A stretch of 64,000 bases of DNA, taken from the NCBI GenBank assembly GCA_016177775.1, contig JACOUQ010000029.1, forward strand, positions 1 through 64,000, read 5' to 3'. Within the stretch, counting starts at the first letter, position 1. Every line of letters starts with the position of its first letter. Made by a program: the position numbers and the translations under genes. This document shows positions 30,056 to 57,397 of this stretch, piece by piece. Under the pieces are notes generated by a model, which saw nothing but the letters and a program-made list of their open reading frames with translations, did no database searches and had not been told where the DNA came from. Source of the DNA: Geobacter sp. (lineage in GTDB: Bacteria > Desulfobacterota > Desulfuromonadia > Geobacterales > Geobacteraceae).

Positions 30056-30715
30056 TTACAGCGAAACCTGCTCTTCCCAGTACCCACTTTCTTCCGCGCT
30101 GGGGAGCCAAACATGAACAAAACTGGGCACATTCGGCATTTGCCCCGGTTTTGTTGACATAGAAAGTGCGCTTGCCATAGCAGCATAGCTGCCAGACAGG
30201 CGCACTTCTTTTTTGTCCACCCGGATTTCCCCCACTAGAAGTTTAAGGTATTCCTTCCCGAAGTTTGAGTCCTGATCCCGCAACTTTTCCCTGAACGCTG
30301 AGCAAAAGGCGCTGACATTCTTTTTCCCGAGCTGCGAAATGGGAAGATCCTTCTTTCTCCGCAACCCAGCCATTTCCGTCAAGATATCCCGCCTTCTCGC
30401 TTGATGCTTGTGGACTCTCTCCTGCAGTGTGCCGTCAAGGGGAAGCAGTCCTTTTTCCACTAACTCATAAAGACGGTCGTTCTGTACCTGGATTGAGTCC
30501 AACTCCTTTGCCAGTTTCCGCAGCTGCTCGTCATGTTCAGACCGGGAGTTTTTCAGGTTCTTCTGAAGCTCGTTCATCATTATTTCCACCCGCTCGGGGG
30601 TAAAACCGAAGGTAAGATAGAAAGCAATGCGTACGGATAAGGTTATTTCTACGATGGTGATTACCAGCCACCGAAGCGGGAATACTTCTTCTAAAGTCGT
30701 CGCAGGTACTCTCAT
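30056..30715 (-). pseudogene. Large serine recombinase C-terminal relic 2
   Basis: Residues about 35-200 resemble the coiled-coil and C-terminal region of a large serine recombinase: FTPERVEIMMNELQKNLKNSRSEHDEQLRKLAKELDSIQVQNDRLYELVEKGLLPLDGTLQERV.., then FGKEYLKLLVGEIRVDKKEVRLSGSYAAMASAL and NVPSFVHVWLP. The resolvase catalytic domain with its Ser, and the zinc ribbon, are missing. The 5' end is cut at the stop of the DsbA-like gene, so it cannot be functional. It shares an att-like 12-mer with relic 1. Confidence 0.7.
30100..30111 (+). repeat. Direct repeat, copy 2 (candidate att core)
   Basis: TGGGGAGCCAAA, identical to 2998-3009 and in the same orientation, 27.1 kb away. It lies inside the last codons of the second serine-recombinase relic. 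Confidence 0.5.
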
Positions 30716-31299
30716 TTCAACAGCACCGTTGCGATCGCCGTCTCGAACCCTTGCAGGCTGTGGTCCATGAGGAGCTTTCCGTTGATGTAGACGGTCGGAG
30801 TTCCCAGAATGCCGAGCTGTCTGCCATCGTCCATATCCCTGTCAATGAGTTCCTCGATTGCCGGGTCCTGGATCTTCCTCTCCAATTTTTTCATGTCCAG
30901 CTTCAACTCTCTGGCGATCACACTGACCTTCTGCGCGTTGAGAACGCTTTGATTCTCGAAGAACTTCGCATGAATCTCCCAGAACTTCCCCTGTTCTTCC
31001 GCCGCGAGAGCAGTAGTGGCCGCCTCCCTTGAAAAATCGTGGTGCGGGAAATTCTTGTGGGCCAGTTTTACCTTACCTGTGTACTTCTCCAGCACCTGCT
31101 GAAGTATCGGCTCAAGCCGCTTGCAGGCAGGTCAGAGATAGTCGGTAAAGACCACGATGGTTACCGGCGCATTCTCAGGGCCAAGGAAAGGGAGGCCGGA
31201 TATGTCCAGATTTTTTACGGCTTCCGGCTGATCCGCTGCCAGACAAAGGCCTGCGGTCAAAATGATCGCAGAAATTATCGCTGCTACTAATTGTCTCAC
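30712..31299 (-). CDS. Selenocysteine-containing DsbA-like thiol oxidoreductase
   Basis: Reading from a GTG at 31299 (GGAGG upstream) gives a Sec signal peptide (residues 1-22, ending CLAA-D) and a DsbA-like thioredoxin fold. One in-frame TGA occurs at codon 56 (31132-31134). The active site would read FTDYL-U-PAC, where family members have CPAC, and translation then continues without interruption through NFPHHDFSREAATTALAAEEQGKFW and GTPTVYINGK (cis-Pro loop) to a normal end. The protein is 195 aa with Sec. Immediately after the UGA, CCTGC can pair with GCAGG around an inner CGGC-UUGA-GCCG hairpin, a candidate bacterial SECIS. A simple nonsense mutation is the alternative. Confidence 0.78.
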
Positions 31300-31396
31300 A
31301 CTTGCCCTCCGATGACTTGAATGTGTTATTCGGCCAACATTTCCACCTTCCGGATCTGATCTGCAAACACCTTCGGATCACTGGTCGGAAGCCGGA

Positions 31397-31419
31397 GGGG
31401 GGCGCACAAGACGCCCCCC
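31397..31419 (-). terminator. GC-rich hairpin after the cytochrome gene
   Basis: GGGGGGCG and CGCCCCCC arms around a short loop, 22 bases after the stop of the multiheme cytochrome. No clear U-run follows, so termination strength is uncertain. Confidence 0.4.
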
Positions 31420-31440: not shown

Positions 31441-33288
31441 CTACTTGCCAGCTGCCTTCTTCAGAATTGCCCCAATTGCCTTGCGGTGTAACTCGTCGGT
31501 CGGTGCCTTGGCTTTTCCTTTAGCTTTCTTCCAGACCTTTGGATCGGCACCGTGGCAGGAAATGCAGGTGCCGGAACGATCCATTCTGTTCAGTTCCGCC
31601 TTGTTAAAGGGGCGGGCTCCCTCGTGGGCGGTCTGCTGGAGCTGCTTGCCGCTCTCGTCCACGATTCGCTCCAACTCGAATTCGATGGGGAGGCCGTTCT
31701 TCCTGGTGTCGTAGATACCAGAACCGAGGCCCAGCGCCTTCGTGTTCATGTGGCAGTCGGCGCAGCTGCGGGACTCCCTGGTGACAGTGTGAGGCTGAAT
31801 CGGGTTGGTGCCGATGCCGCTCGTGCCGTCCTTGGTGGTGTAGACCTTGTTGTTGACGATCCCCTTTTCACCCTCCACCTGGGTGAAGACCGCCTGGCAG
31901 CCGGGGATGAAGGGGCTCACCTTCCCCCTGGAGTTGATGCCGAGGACCGGGGTCTCCCAGCGCAGGTAGGAGCGGGACTCGTCCCAGTCATAGGCGGTGC
32001 CCTGCCGGTTCGCCTTGGTCCCCGCCTTGCTCGGGTCGTCGCTCTGCTTGTCGTTCAGCCAGTCGCCGCCGGACTTGCCGACGTTCTGCCTGGCGTGGCA
32101 GCCATAGCACTGGGGCGCCCATTTGGCGTGGCAGCCGTAGCACTCAACCTTGTTCATGTGGGTAGGAATCGCTACCATGGCGGCATACCCTTCGGACTTG
32201 AAGGAGATGTCGGCTATTTGGGGCACCAGATGTTTCTTGCCGGTCACTTTGGCTGTCATGACCACCTTCTTCCCCTCCTTCTTCAGGTTCGGGAAGGTGT
32301 TACCCCAGGAAGTCTTCAAATTGGAGCGCTTCTTCATGGTGCCGTGGCAGTCCTCGCAGCGGACCTCCACCGCCTGCTCCCGCTTCTCGTAAATGTTGCC
32401 GTCACCATGAAGGTCCTGTTTGGTGTGGCAATCAATGCACGCAAGCCCCTTGTCATAGTGGACATCGGCAGAGATATGGTTGTAGTTCTTGCCATGAAGT
32501 TTGCCCTGCTTGCCGCCGCTGGCGGTGTAGGGGGTGCCGTAACCGTCGCTTTCCATGTCGCCGATGTAGCTCACCCCGGTTCGACCGCCCCGGTTGTGGC
32601 AGTGTAAGCACTGGCTGACCGGAATCTTGTTGGTGATCCGGTGGAAGCGGGGGCGGTCCTTCGTTCCCTTCGGGATCGCCTTGTCGTTCCCCTCGTAAGT
32701 GCCGGCATCGGAGTAAAGGACATGGCAGGCGGCGCATCCGCTCGCCCGGTAGTCGCCGTCCTGGGGATTACCAGCGGTCCAGAGATGACAGCGGAGGCAC
32801 TGGTTGCGCAGATAGTCGTCGGATGGGGAATTTTCAGACCCCTCCGGCTTTTTCGGGTCGTAGGACGGAAGCCCCTTGAGGGCCTTCACCCCCTTCTTCG
32901 CTCCGGGGTTCTCGACCGGCTGGTTGGCGTAGATTCCCTCGCGCCCCTGGGCTCCCCAGGCGTAGCGGGTGCCGCTGATCTTGCCGGCGCTAGTGGCGTG
33001 GAGCGACTTCATGGCGTTCTCCAAGTCCTTCGGGTGGCAGGTGCCGCAGGTCTTGGCCGCTACCCGCAGGTCGCTCGGGTTTGCGTACATGCCGGCATGG
33101 GCCTGCTGTTTGTCCGCAGCGTCAGCATTCCCTCGGTGACAGCCGGTACAGGAAAGACTTCCCATCACCGGCCCGTCGGCTATCCTCTCGATCCCCTCGT
33201 GGCAGGTAAGGCACTTCTCCTGGGCTCCCGCCCATCCTGGTACGGCGAGCAGCACCATTGCCGCCAGGGTGATCATCAATCGGTTCAT
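31441..33288 (-). CDS. Exported 12-heme c-type cytochrome
   Basis: The 615-aa protein has a signal peptide (residues 1-22, ..GWAGAQ) and twelve CxxCH heme motifs: CLTCH, CTGCH, CGTCH, CLRCH, CAACH, CLHCH, CIDCH, CEDCH, CYGCH twice, CADCH and CISCH. AGGAGG precedes the ATG. No outer-membrane anchor is visible, so it is likely periplasmic or surface-bound and used in respiratory electron transfer. The Sec-DsbA gene lies downstream in the same direction and may support its cysteine chemistry; that link is inference. Confidence 0.93.
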   Translation of the reverse strand: MNRLMITLAAMVLLAVPGWAGAQEKCLTCHEGIERIADGPVMGSLSCTGCHRGNADAADKQQAHAGMYANPSDLRVAAKTCGTCHPKDLENAMKSLHATSAGKISGTRYAWGAQGREGIYANQPVENPGAKKGVKALKGLPSYDPKKPEGSENSPSDDYLRNQCLRCHLWTAGNPQDGDYRASGCAACHVLYSDAGTYEGNDKAIPKGTKDRPRFHRITNKIPVSQCLHCHNRGGRTGVSYIGDMESDGYGTPYTASGGKQGKLHGKNYNHISADVHYDKGLACIDCHTKQDLHGDGNIYEKREQAVEVRCEDCHGTMKKRSNLKTSWGNTFPNLKKEGKKVVMTAKVTGKKHLVPQIADISFKSEGYAAMVAIPTHMNKVECYGCHAKWAPQCYGCHARQNVGKSGGDWLNDKQSDDPSKAGTKANRQGTAYDWDESRSYLRWETPVLGINSRGKVSPFIPGCQAVFTQVEGEKGIVNNKVYTTKDGTSGIGTNPIQPHTVTRESRSCADCHMNTKALGLGSGIYDTRKNGLPIEFELERIVDESGKQLQQTAHEGARPFNKAELNRMDRSGTCISCHGADPKVWKKAKGKAKAPTDELHRKAIGAILKKAAGK

Positions 33289-33578: not shown

Positions 33579-34142
33579 TTACTGTATCGAAGGACACTTC
33601 TCCGTCCCGTAGGAACAGAATACGCAACATTCCCCCGGCTTGGGGCGCAATACTGTCTTGCATTGCGTGCACTCATAGAAGAACTGGCAGGCATCGGTCG
33701 GCATGTTTTCCTCTTTCTGAAAACCGCAAACGGGGCAGGTAATCGTAGATGTTAGCTTCATGGTTTCACCCATTTTGCACCTGGTACAACGCCTGTTCTC
33801 AAGATAGTTCAAAGCCGATGCGCCGAGCAGCCCGACAAGCCCCAGGTAGTTCAACATCTCGTTGAAGCGGATGTGAAAGGCGTAGAAAATGAGCACTGCG
33901 CTCAGGATGCCTGTGACAAGCGGCGCGGCTTTGCGGTGACGCCGGAAAGATAGTACGAGCCCGACCAAAGCGACGAGAATGAAGAGCTGGTAGAGATAGA
34001 GAAACTTACCTTCGTACGGATGCAGCGCACCGAAGCCGACCACCGACCCGGCTGCGGCAAGGAGCGGGAAACATATGGGACAGGCGGCAGCGGCCAGCAT
34101 TGCACCTACGGAGCCAAGTTTGTCAAGAAAGCGGATTAGCAT
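33579..34142 (-). CDS. MerC-like membrane protein with GDCCVxC-type tail
   Basis: The 187-aa protein. Residues about 1-115 hold four membrane helices with the metal-binding CPIC motif (AAACPICFPLLAAAGSVVGFG) as in MerC mercury transporters. The C-terminal soluble part has CTRC, CPVC, CTQC, and ends PGECCVFCSYGTEKCPSIQ, the GDCCVxC signature with Glu replacing Asp. The ATG at 34142 has AGAGG upstream. It probably handles a thiophilic metal ion. The joined domains are usually separate genes. Confidence 0.75.
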   Translation of the reverse strand: MLIRFLDKLGSVGAMLAAAACPICFPLLAAAGSVVGFGALHPYEGKFLYLYQLFILVALVGLVLSFRRHRKAAPLVTGILSAVLIFYAFHIRFNEMLNYLGLVGLLGASALNYLENRRCTRCKMGETMKLTSTITCPVCGFQKEENMPTDACQFFYECTQCKTVLRPKPGECCVFCSYGTEKCPSIQ

Positions 34143-34261
34143 TCCGGCATACCTCTTTAACACGGCACTAAACCTGATCCCCAAAACTTCGCAGCTTCAT
34201 GCTCCTTAAATCATTTGTTCCATGTTACAAGGTCAGGACAAATTCGCAAATCAACGGCAAG

Positions 34262-47005: not shown

Positions 47006-47158
47006 GGGCCTCTCCCGTAACGGAAAAGGCCCCCTATCACCTTGAGCGGTGGATCTGCGGGTCTCCTTTCCTGAAGGGAGGCGCTGCCGTTTCCGGCGGC
47101 ACCCGTTGGCCGTGCGCCATGAGATATCTCTCTTTTAGGCGTGGCGGCTCGGAGAATA
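47006..47158 (-). promoter_or_regulatory. Moco/Tuco riboswitch 1 with intrinsic terminator
   Basis: The minus strand has the conserved Moco-RNA blocks: CTCCGAGCC (47154-47146), CGCCT, CTCATGG, GGCCAACGGGTGCC, GCCGGAAACGGC, GCGCCTCCC and AAAGGAG. A strong hairpin follows (47006-47033, GGCCTTTTCC and GGGAGAGGCC, then TTTTCTT). Cofactor binding would presumably stop transcription into moaE-tupABC. Confidence 0.9.
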
Positions 47159-47220
47159 TATGCGTTTATCTTTTTAACACATCGGGAGCGTGAAACTCCA
47201 GCGCGTATACGGCAAAAACA

Positions 47221-53941: not shown

Positions 53942-54099
53942 GGGGCCCTCTCCGATATGGAAAAGGCCCCTTCAAAACAGGATAAGATCCGGCGTTGCAG
54001 GTTTCTCCTTTCCAAAAGGGAGGCGCTGCCGTTTCCGGCAGAACCCGTTGGCCGCTCACCATGAGGAATTATCCTTTTAGGCTTTGCGGCTCGGAGAGA
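53942..54099 (-). promoter_or_regulatory. Moco/Tuco riboswitch 2 with intrinsic terminator
   Basis: The minus strand has CTCCGAGCC (54096-54088), GCCTAAAAGG, CTCATGG, GGCCAACGGGTTC, GCCGGAAACGGC, GCGCCTCCC and GGAAAGGAG. The terminator hairpin GGGGCCTTTTCC/GGAGAGGGCCCC plus TTTTTT follows at 53942-53970. It precedes the TiaS-like gene by about 40 bases. Confidence 0.9.
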
Positions 54100-54118
54100 A
54101 ATATTTCTATGTATTTAA

Positions 54119-55304: not shown

Positions 55305-57038
55305 TTAGAAGTTCCAGAACTCGTCGATTTCCTCATCGGACATGGTCCAGGTGAGGTTATGGGGAGCGCAAGGATCTTCGCTGAAGAACTCGGGGAGACG
55401 GTCGTCCTGCTTGGTGAAGCCGGCAGCGTTGTTGAATGCGTGCTCGGTCTTCAGGACGGATTTCCCGAGGGCGATCACGTCGTCGCCGGTCAGGGTCAGG
55501 TTGTACTTCGCGTTGAGCATGTCGATGATCGCTGCCAGGGTCTCCGGTATGTCCAGAGCCGGGAAGGCGACGAAGAGGCAGAGACCGGTGGAGTCGATGG
55601 CGGCAGTGGCGATCTGGAGGTTACGGGAGAGTTCCACCTGGCCTTCATTTTTCAGCGGGTCGATGAAACCGCCGACTTTCAGGATGTTGGTGGCTACGGC
55701 GTAGCCGGCGGTGTGGTCCGCGCCCTGGGTCGAGGTAGCGTAGGTAACGCCGATACCCTTGACGGTGCGGGGATCGTATGCCGGGATGCCCTGGCCCTTG
55801 ACGACCGGAACGCGGGTGATGCCGTAGGCCTTGCCGACGGAGGCGGCGCCGTTGCCGAGGATGCGGCCGAGGGGTGAGCCGTTGCCGATCTCTTCCAGAA
55901 GCTTCAGGGTGCCGGGGCCGTCGCCGAACTCCACAATGCCGGCTTCCATGGCAACGCCGATGATGACGGCGCCTTCGATGGAGTCGATCCCGATGTCGTC
56001 CATGATCCGGTCAGCCCTGGCGATGGTGTCGAGGTCATCGATGCAGCAGTTGGCGCCGAAGCCCCAGATGGTCTCATACTCAAAGCCGGAGGTGATGTAC
56101 TCGCCCTTCTCGTCAACGTAGTGCTGGGAACACTGGATGATGCAGCCGGCGTGGCAGCCGTGCTTCGGCTTGCCGCCGCGCTTGACGATGATCTCGCGCA
56201 TGGTCTCGCCGCTGATCTTGTCGTGCCCTTCGAACTGGCCGGTGCGGAAGTTCTTGGTGGGGAGGCCGCCGGCCTCGTTCAGTACGTTCACGAGAACGTT
56301 GGTGCCGTAGGTCGGGAGGCCTTCGCCGCTGACCGGGTGCTCCAGGATCGCCTTGGCGAATGCGCGGGCAGCGCCCTTGAACTTCTCGGGATCAGCGATC
56401 GGGGTGCCGGTGCCGTTGGTATCGTCGATGGTTACGTACTTCACCTTCTTGGAGCCCATGACTGCGCCGAGGCCGCCGCGGCCGTGGCTGCGGATGTTGC
56501 CGTCCGGGTCCTTGACGGAGATATTGGCGGCTGCCATTCTCATCTCGCCAACCGGGCCGATGGTGAGGACGCCGACCTTCGGGGCGATCTGGGCGGAAAG
56601 GGTCTTGATCACTTCGTAGTTACGCTTGCCGACGAGTTCGGTGGCTTCCACGATCTTGACGCTGTCCTTGGCGATCTGGATGCCGTAGAACTTGCTGTCG
56701 TCAACCGGAGCGCCTTCGATGATCAGGGCCTTGATGGCCAGCTTGGCCAGGTTCTGGGCAGCGGTGCCGCCGGCGTTGGATTCCTTGATGCCGCCGGTCA
56801 GAGGGCTCTTGGCGCCTGCAGAGAGGCGGCCCGACTGGGCAGCCGGGGTGCCGGCCAGGAGGCCCGGGGCAAAGACCAGCTTGTTGTGCTTGCCGAGGGC
56901 GTCACAGGTCGGGGGAACTTCCTTGGCCACGATGGCCGAGGTGAGTGCCCGGCCGCCGATGCCAGCCCATTCAGACGGCACGTCTTCGAAAGCGCCGGTT
57001 AGTGTGGTCATGTTTACGCGTAGAATTTTTTCTGCCAT
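55305..57038 (-). CDS. aor: Tungsten aldehyde:ferredoxin oxidoreductase
   Basis: The 577-aa enzyme has the N-terminal AOR domain (ILRVNMTTLTGAFEDVP..GIGGRALTSAIV), cofactor-contact motifs GRLSAGAKSPLTGGIKESNAGG and HGRGGLGAVMGSKKVKYV, and the [4Fe-4S] ligands CHAGCIIQC near residue 300 with the fourth Cys in DSTGLCLF. The DxxGxD and DxxGLC pterin motifs appear as DDIGIDSIE and DSTGLC. It oxidises aldehydes to acids (or the reverse) with ferredoxin. It is controlled by riboswitch 3 and sits with an Fe-ADH, moaD and moeB. Confidence 0.93.
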   Translation of the reverse strand: MAEKILRVNMTTLTGAFEDVPSEWAGIGGRALTSAIVAKEVPPTCDALGKHNKLVFAPGLLAGTPAAQSGRLSAGAKSPLTGGIKESNAGGTAAQNLAKLAIKALIIEGAPVDDSKFYGIQIAKDSVKIVEATELVGKRNYEVIKTLSAQIAPKVGVLTIGPVGEMRMAAANISVKDPDGNIRSHGRGGLGAVMGSKKVKYVTIDDTNGTGTPIADPEKFKGAARAFAKAILEHPVSGEGLPTYGTNVLVNVLNEAGGLPTKNFRTGQFEGHDKISGETMREIIVKRGGKPKHGCHAGCIIQCSQHYVDEKGEYITSGFEYETIWGFGANCCIDDLDTIARADRIMDDIGIDSIEGAVIIGVAMEAGIVEFGDGPGTLKLLEEIGNGSPLGRILGNGAASVGKAYGITRVPVVKGQGIPAYDPRTVKGIGVTYATSTQGADHTAGYAVATNILKVGGFIDPLKNEGQVELSRNLQIATAAIDSTGLCLFVAFPALDIPETLAAIIDMLNAKYNLTLTGDDVIALGKSVLKTEHAFNNAAGFTKQDDRLPEFFSEDPCAPHNLTWTMSDEEIDEFWNF

Positions 57039-57065: not shown

Positions 57066-57264
57066 AAAGACACATGAACCGCAGTGTCACGGAAAAATCA
57101 TCGAAAAGGACTGTCTGCGCAGCCTTCACTCCAAAAGGGAGCTGCAAGGTGCAAGCAATTTCCTTGCCGGTATACGGCAAGGGCCTGTTCGATAGAATGC
57201 CCGCAACCACTGTGATTCCGGGGTGAACCGCTGTTTGATGAAGATTACGGCGATTGTGCCGCGG
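57066..57264 (-). promoter_or_regulatory. aor leader after the aptamer (candidate expression platform)
   Basis: About 200 bases between aptamer 3 and aor. It holds a CCTTGCCG/CGGCAAGG hairpin (57160-57182) and a weaker GACAC/GTGTC hairpin followed by TTTTT just before the start. Either could be the switching element; the arrangement differs from riboswitches 1 and 2, which have a terminator close to the aptamer. Confidence 0.4.
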
Positions 57265-57363
57265 TGCTTTCTCCTTTCCGAAAGGGAGGCGCCGCCGTTT
57301 CCGGCGGCACCCATTGGCCTGCGGCCGTGAGGATATACCTGGTAGGCCGTTAAGCTCGGAGAC
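57265..57363 (-). promoter_or_regulatory. Moco/Tuco riboswitch 3 (aor leader)
   Basis: The minus strand has CTCCGAGC (57361-57354), GGCCTACC, ATCCTCACGGCC, AGGCCAATGGGTGCC, GCCGGAAACGGC, GGCGCCTCCC, TTTCGGAAAGGAG. It precedes the tungsten AOR gene, so tungsten cofactor may be its natural signal. It begins six bases after the terminator of the upstream Fe-ADH gene. Confidence 0.88.
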
Positions 57364-57368
57364 GGAAA

Positions 57369-57397
57369 AGCCCCCCTCGGGATTCCGAGGGGGGCAG
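57369..57397 (-). terminator. Rho-independent terminator of the Fe-ADH gene
   Basis: CCCCCCTCGG-AATC-CCGAGGGGGG, then CTTTTCC, between adh and aptamer 3. Confidence 0.8.

Follow-up and report, generated by a model that had tools for sequence, protein, structure and literature searches.

A predicted DsbA-like selenoprotein in Geobacter sp. with a covarying SECIS hairpin downstream of its in-frame TGA

Introduction

Does the TGA at codon 56 of a DsbA-like gene from Geobacter sp. terminate translation, or is it read as selenocysteine (Sec) at the first active-site residue? The existence of DsbA-like UxxC selenoproteins has been recognised since 2005-2006 (PMC1088965; PMC1794560). Those listed in PMC1794560 belong to Anaeromyxobacter, Desulfovibrio and Desulfotomaculum, and a 2026 review tabulates DsbA-like protein form 1 (PMC13188914). 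Here we examine the gene, its homologs, the RNA downstream of the TGA and the Sec machinery of the genome. The window referred to throughout is the whole stretch of DNA analysed, 64,000 nucleotides in length (Table 1).

Results

The gene and its predicted product

The gene is read on the minus strand from a GTG start (31299-31297) with GGAGGG ahead of it to a natural TGA stop (30714-30712), and the only interruption of the frame is the TGA of codon 56 (31134-31132). The readthrough product matches Thioredoxin_4 (E 5e-28) and DSBA (E 2e-20), with the domain over cut-off, in agreement with the preliminary description, which had reported a continuous DsbA frame broken by one TGA at this codon. 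Truncation of the gene by standard annotation, also anticipated there, is what table 11 ORF calling produces: solely a 127-aa 3' piece (31095-30712), whose GTG start falls within the SECIS hairpin described below. The AlphaFold2 model has a DsbA fold (pLDDT 92) with residue 56 directly ahead of helix 57-72. T167-P168-T169 is the cis-Pro loop, which in thioredoxin folds lies opposite the active site.

The top Foldseek matches are the Silicibacter pomeroyi thioredoxin-like oxidoreductase (3gyk) and Bacillus subtilis BdbD (3eu3), with TM scores of 0.75-0.78 by query length and 26-30% identity; ScsC proteins were also matched. BdbD and 3gyk resemble the window protein in fold and active-site position, but have Cys where the window protein has its predicted Sec. 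The nearest NCBIfam model, NF041057 (Rcas_1661 thioredoxin-like (seleno)lipoprotein), describes the same fold and a family that may hold Sec, but at 88.5 bits against a cut-off of 190, and with no lipobox seen, the window protein is not a member. Three longer relatives (L019/L135, L020/L134, L026/L136), two of them with Sec, have a C-terminal DsbA domain 43-54% identical to it and an extra, weakly propeller-like N-terminal domain of about 120 residues, whereas the window protein and the copy in G014 stand alone.

Table 1. Positions of the gene, its elements, its neighbours and related loci.
Feature	Position	Strand	Remarks
DsbA-like selenoprotein gene (predicted)	30712..31299	minus	195 codons + stop; GTG start; predicted Sec codon 56
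Signal-peptide-like N-terminus, residues 1-21	31237..31299	minus	translation by eye; cleavage between CLA and AD
In-frame TGA (predicted Sec codon 56)	31132..31134	minus	first position of U-P-A-C; homolog alignments
Cys59 codon, second active-site cysteine	31123..31125	minus	invariant among homologs; homolog alignments
cis-Pro loop, T167-P168-T169	30793..30801	minus	alignments
Predicted SECIS hairpin	31087..31104	minus	stem CTTCAGC/GCTGGAG, 7 bp; loop AGGT (31097-31094); 34 nt past UGA; covariation
Hairpin of the preliminary description	31095..31131	minus	CCTGC/GCAGG, inner CGGC/GCCG; minimum-energy fold of window alone
Multiheme c-type cytochrome	31441-33288	minus	upstream of selenoprotein gene
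Downstream ORF	30056-30715	minus	overlaps selenoprotein stop (ATGA); coiled-coil region
MerC-like membrane protein	33579-34184	minus	C-terminal GDCCVxC domain
Molybdenum/tungsten (Moco) riboswitch	53989-54108		Rfam scan
Molybdenum/tungsten (Moco) riboswitch	57255-57373		Rfam scan
Molybdenum/tungsten (Moco) riboswitch	47047-47166	minus	Rfam scan
SelD gene L128	G000:C31:256151-257068		in-frame TGA
SelD gene L129	G000:C30:16434-17357		in-frame TGA
Sister Sec clade	L043-L046, L140-L144		SECIS apical loop about 15 nt (five codons) nearer UGA

Selenocysteine machinery

The genome holds a tRNA-Sec (76.5 bits, over cut-off; ARAGORN anticodon tca), SelB (387 bits), SelA (635 bits) and two SelD genes over cut-off. 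In each SelD gene the motif AG-U-AAK contains a TGA in frame, which makes both SelD proteins further predicted selenoproteins of this genome, and one of them is fused at its N-terminus to a cysteine-desulfurase-like (NifS-type) domain. Among 32 relatives tested, SelA was over cut-off in all 13 carriers of the TGA form. The four in which it was not (G097, G173, G182 and G190) all carry the Cys form, and the Cys relative in G097 is nested among Sec forms.

A covarying hairpin downstream of the TGA

Alignment of the 29 TGA loci in the window's part of the tree, which is free of gaps, reveals a conserved element whose columns 31-37 and 42-48 are paired in 94.1% of cells. None of 500 shuffles matched this paired fraction, and control pairings slid along the alignment reached 27-51%. 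Eighteen cells have changed on both sides, with two-sided changes in column pairs 34-45 (GC, CG, AU, UG), 35-44, 36-43 and 31-48, and RNAalifold independently recovers the same hairpin. A codon-column permutation that preserves the protein (2000 trials) gave a mean of 169.5 paired cells (sd 3.0, max 180); the real alignment has 191. The loop reads AGGT in 24 of the 29 loci and AGTT in the other 5. In Cys homologs (n=77) the same columns are paired in just 47% of cells.

The published bSECIS model calls for a loop of 3-9 nt, a stem of 4-16 bp, a G within the first two loop positions, a UGA-to-loop spacing of 16-37 nt and an energy of at most -7.5 kcal/mol (PMC13188914). The window hairpin agrees with it in every respect (loop 4 nt, stem 7 bp, G at position 2, 34 nt, -8.4 kcal/mol). 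Taken alone it is marginal (P 0.046 versus synonymous resampling), and folding of the first 57 nt gives a different structure as the lowest in energy; an Rfam scan of the window returned no SECIS family. Judged from the alignment, the conserved element is the AGGT-loop hairpin at 31104-31087, which we predict to be the SECIS.

A different hairpin had been put forward in the preliminary description, formed by CCTGC/GCAGG with an inner CGGC/GCCG stem. It does exist after the UGA, where it is the lowest-energy structure predicted for the window's 57 nt, at a z of -0.87 that is not significant, and its inner stem is paired in 70% of cells across the alignment. Its outer stem is paired in only 45%, however, giving 55.9% overall; this stem is nearly absent beyond the window, pairs 7-37 and 8-36 are almost never formed, and the count of further pair types is not above that of shuffles. 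It also fails the published bSECIS model. A selenoprotein that used this hairpin, unconserved in relatives, as its SECIS is thus very improbable. Folding of the single sequence was uninformative as a guide to the SECIS and picked the wrong hairpin.

Exchange of TGA and Cys at one codon

We searched 196 related genomes as well as GTDB genome contigs and obtained 114 distinct homologs. The codon for the first active-site residue is TGA in 39 of them (the window and 38 others) and Cys in the remaining 75, with no third state, and the TGA loci span at least two phyla. The nearest homologs, L018 (G014, 55% identity) and L020 (G028, 50%), belong to the same taxonomic family and both have TGA. Between the window and L018, differences at the three codon positions number 6/6/17 over the 28 codons aligned before the TGA and 34/36/76 over 139 codons after it. 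This third-position excess on either side argues that the frame is under selection on both sides, and we read it as purifying selection before and after the TGA.

These patterns bear on whether the TGA instead ends translation early in a Cys-type dsbA that is decaying, so that only a 127-aa 3' piece or nothing would be made. Standard annotation does see the 3' piece only, and a remnant-looking ORF with no credible family match lies directly downstream. Against this, the same TGA recurs in 38 other loci from at least two phyla, the pattern either side of it is purifying, and the covarying SECIS goes with TGA forms and not with Cys forms; we regard decay as highly unlikely. That a TGC or TGT was misread as TGA is even less credible: the genome is known from a single assembly, but the corresponding codon is also TGA in the two nearest members of the family, one of them a single-contig genome, and the window retains the full SECIS stem.

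One Cys-type homolog, L024 in the single-contig genome G164, has an in-frame TAG between AE and LGLD, which may reflect a pseudogene, an error or recoding. We rejected it as an active-site stop as it sits mid-gene.

Repeated switching between Sec and Cys

A tree built by a quick method, with the active-site column left out, requires at least 13 Sec/Cys changes by parsimony, or at least six when only well-supported branches are considered. The state thus appears to have switched repeatedly within the family. Close sister proteins can differ in state, as in L105 (Cys) and L115 (Sec), at 87% protein identity, and L054 (Cys) and L072 (Sec), at 85%. In L054 a single synonymous change, GTG to GTA, disrupts the otherwise invariant C37-G42 pair, and L019 has lost several SECIS pairs in a genome without SelA. 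Nine Sec proteins form a clade of their own (support 99), and in it the hairpin loop lies at about nt 23, versus 38 in the window's clade. This placement would fit two histories, one in which Sec was gained a second time and one in which the SECIS moved, and the parsimony counts are blind to gain versus loss.

Genomic surroundings

No conserved gene neighbourhood was found among the four relatives read, so function could not be assigned from an operon and the nearby cytochrome gives no strong clue. A sigma-70 promoter scan gave nothing above chance. The cytochrome is weakly ExtM-like (294 bits against a cut-off of 800), with partial likeness to ExtN and ExtO far below their cut-offs; ExtM, ExtN and ExtO are components of selenite/tellurite reduction operons. 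An inverted repeat, GGGGGGCG/CGCCCCCC (31392-31415), without a T run, lies between the cytochrome and selenoprotein genes. For the downstream ORF, neither Pfam nor NCBIfam nor plasmid sequences gave a credible match; our impression is that its C-terminal part is perhaps a serine recombinase remnant. The NCBIfam name of the GDCCVxC domain allows Sec, and the MerC-like protein reads GECCVFC, with Cys. The three Moco riboswitches, the only Rfam matches in the window, span 10 kb or so, and one is upstream of a putative aldehyde-ferredoxin-oxidoreductase-like gene (577 aa, 55305-57038).

Discussion

The frame, the family, the machinery, the position of TGA and Cys and the covarying hairpin were all computed directly. 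Because TGA and Cys exchange at a single codon, the Sec machinery is complete, selection is purifying and the SECIS covaries, the gene almost certainly encodes a DsbA-like selenoprotein with Sec at its first active-site residue. The prediction made in the preliminary description is borne out in this respect: the selA, selB, selC and selD search it proposed recovered tRNA-Sec, SelA, SelB and two SelD, the alignment it called for shows Cys or TGA at the codon 56 position in all 114 homologs, and the decayed frame in relatives that would have counted against it was not seen, the frame being intact and the nearest relatives being of the same family.

We are now able to propose how the gene may be expressed and used, and here Sec insertion, export, the partner and the direction of catalysis are all inferred. 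SelB with Sec-tRNA(Sec) would dock on the AGGU-loop hairpin 34 nt past UGA56, so that the ribosome puts in Sec at this codon rather than terminating. The product would be a thiol oxidoreductase of the DsbA-like (Thioredoxin_4) type, exported and standing alone, with a Sec nucleophile in the motif U56-P-A-C59. Outside the cytoplasm, the selenol at residue 56 would attack substrate disulfides, with Cys59 resolving.

The direction in which such an enzyme works is less certain. BdbD has a DsbB-like protein as its partner. In the window's genome no such partner was found: neither DsbB nor VKOR was detected, so that no reoxidase of a canonical DsbA/DsbB (or VKOR) oxidative pathway was recognised, although the genome is 85% complete and absence is no proof. 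Among twelve relatives, DsbB or VKOR was over cut-off solely in G097 (VKOR) and G161 (DsbB), and most TGA-carrier genomes examined, several of them single-contig, lacked both. The genome does encode two DsbD_TM proteins (CcdA/DsbD-like). Given that neither reoxidase was found and that the genome has membrane proteins of the CcdA/DsbD type, we lean towards a CcdA/DsbD-fed reductase or isomerase over a net oxidant. A selenoprotein acting as a net disulfide oxidant, either recharged by an unrecognised quinone-linked reoxidase or coupled to cytochromes of the periplasm, the neighbouring multiheme protein for one, is possible though rather doubtful. The DsbA/BdbD fold would suit it, as would the same-strand gene for a multiheme cytochrome that lies upstream, but the lack of detectable DsbB/VKOR extends to most carriers examined, and the cytochrome is not adjacent to the gene in relatives.

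Compared by features and not by direct alignment, the protein resembles DsbA-like form 1 (UxxC; PF01323; Sargasso Sea and Deltaproteobacteria; PMC1088965, PMC1794560, PMC13188914) in its domain, its first-position Sec, its downstream SECIS and its widespread Cys homologs, and differs in a SECIS whose spacing, at 34 nt, is close to the upper end of the 16-37 nt range. As the domain, a TGA at the CxxC Cys position, a bSECIS hairpin and selA/B/C/D are all present, the gene appears to be a well-supported added member of this known group. What is added here is the actual SECIS, its alternative position in the sister clade, and the failure to find DsbB or VKOR. More speculatively, and on balance probably not, this residue may have become Sec on two or more separate occasions, with the SECIS placed differently in each case, and these proteins may serve a DsbB/VKOR-free, CcdA-fed reductive thiol pathway in anaerobes.

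Automatic annotation strips this protein of its signal peptide and one half of its active site, and many relatives probably suffer the same loss. The absence of DsbB and VKOR prompts one to ask how anaerobes might drive a selenothiol enzyme that is exported. Finally, closely related sister proteins that differ in having Sec or Cys, and in whether the hairpin is present, constitute a natural experiment on the gain and loss of selenocysteine.
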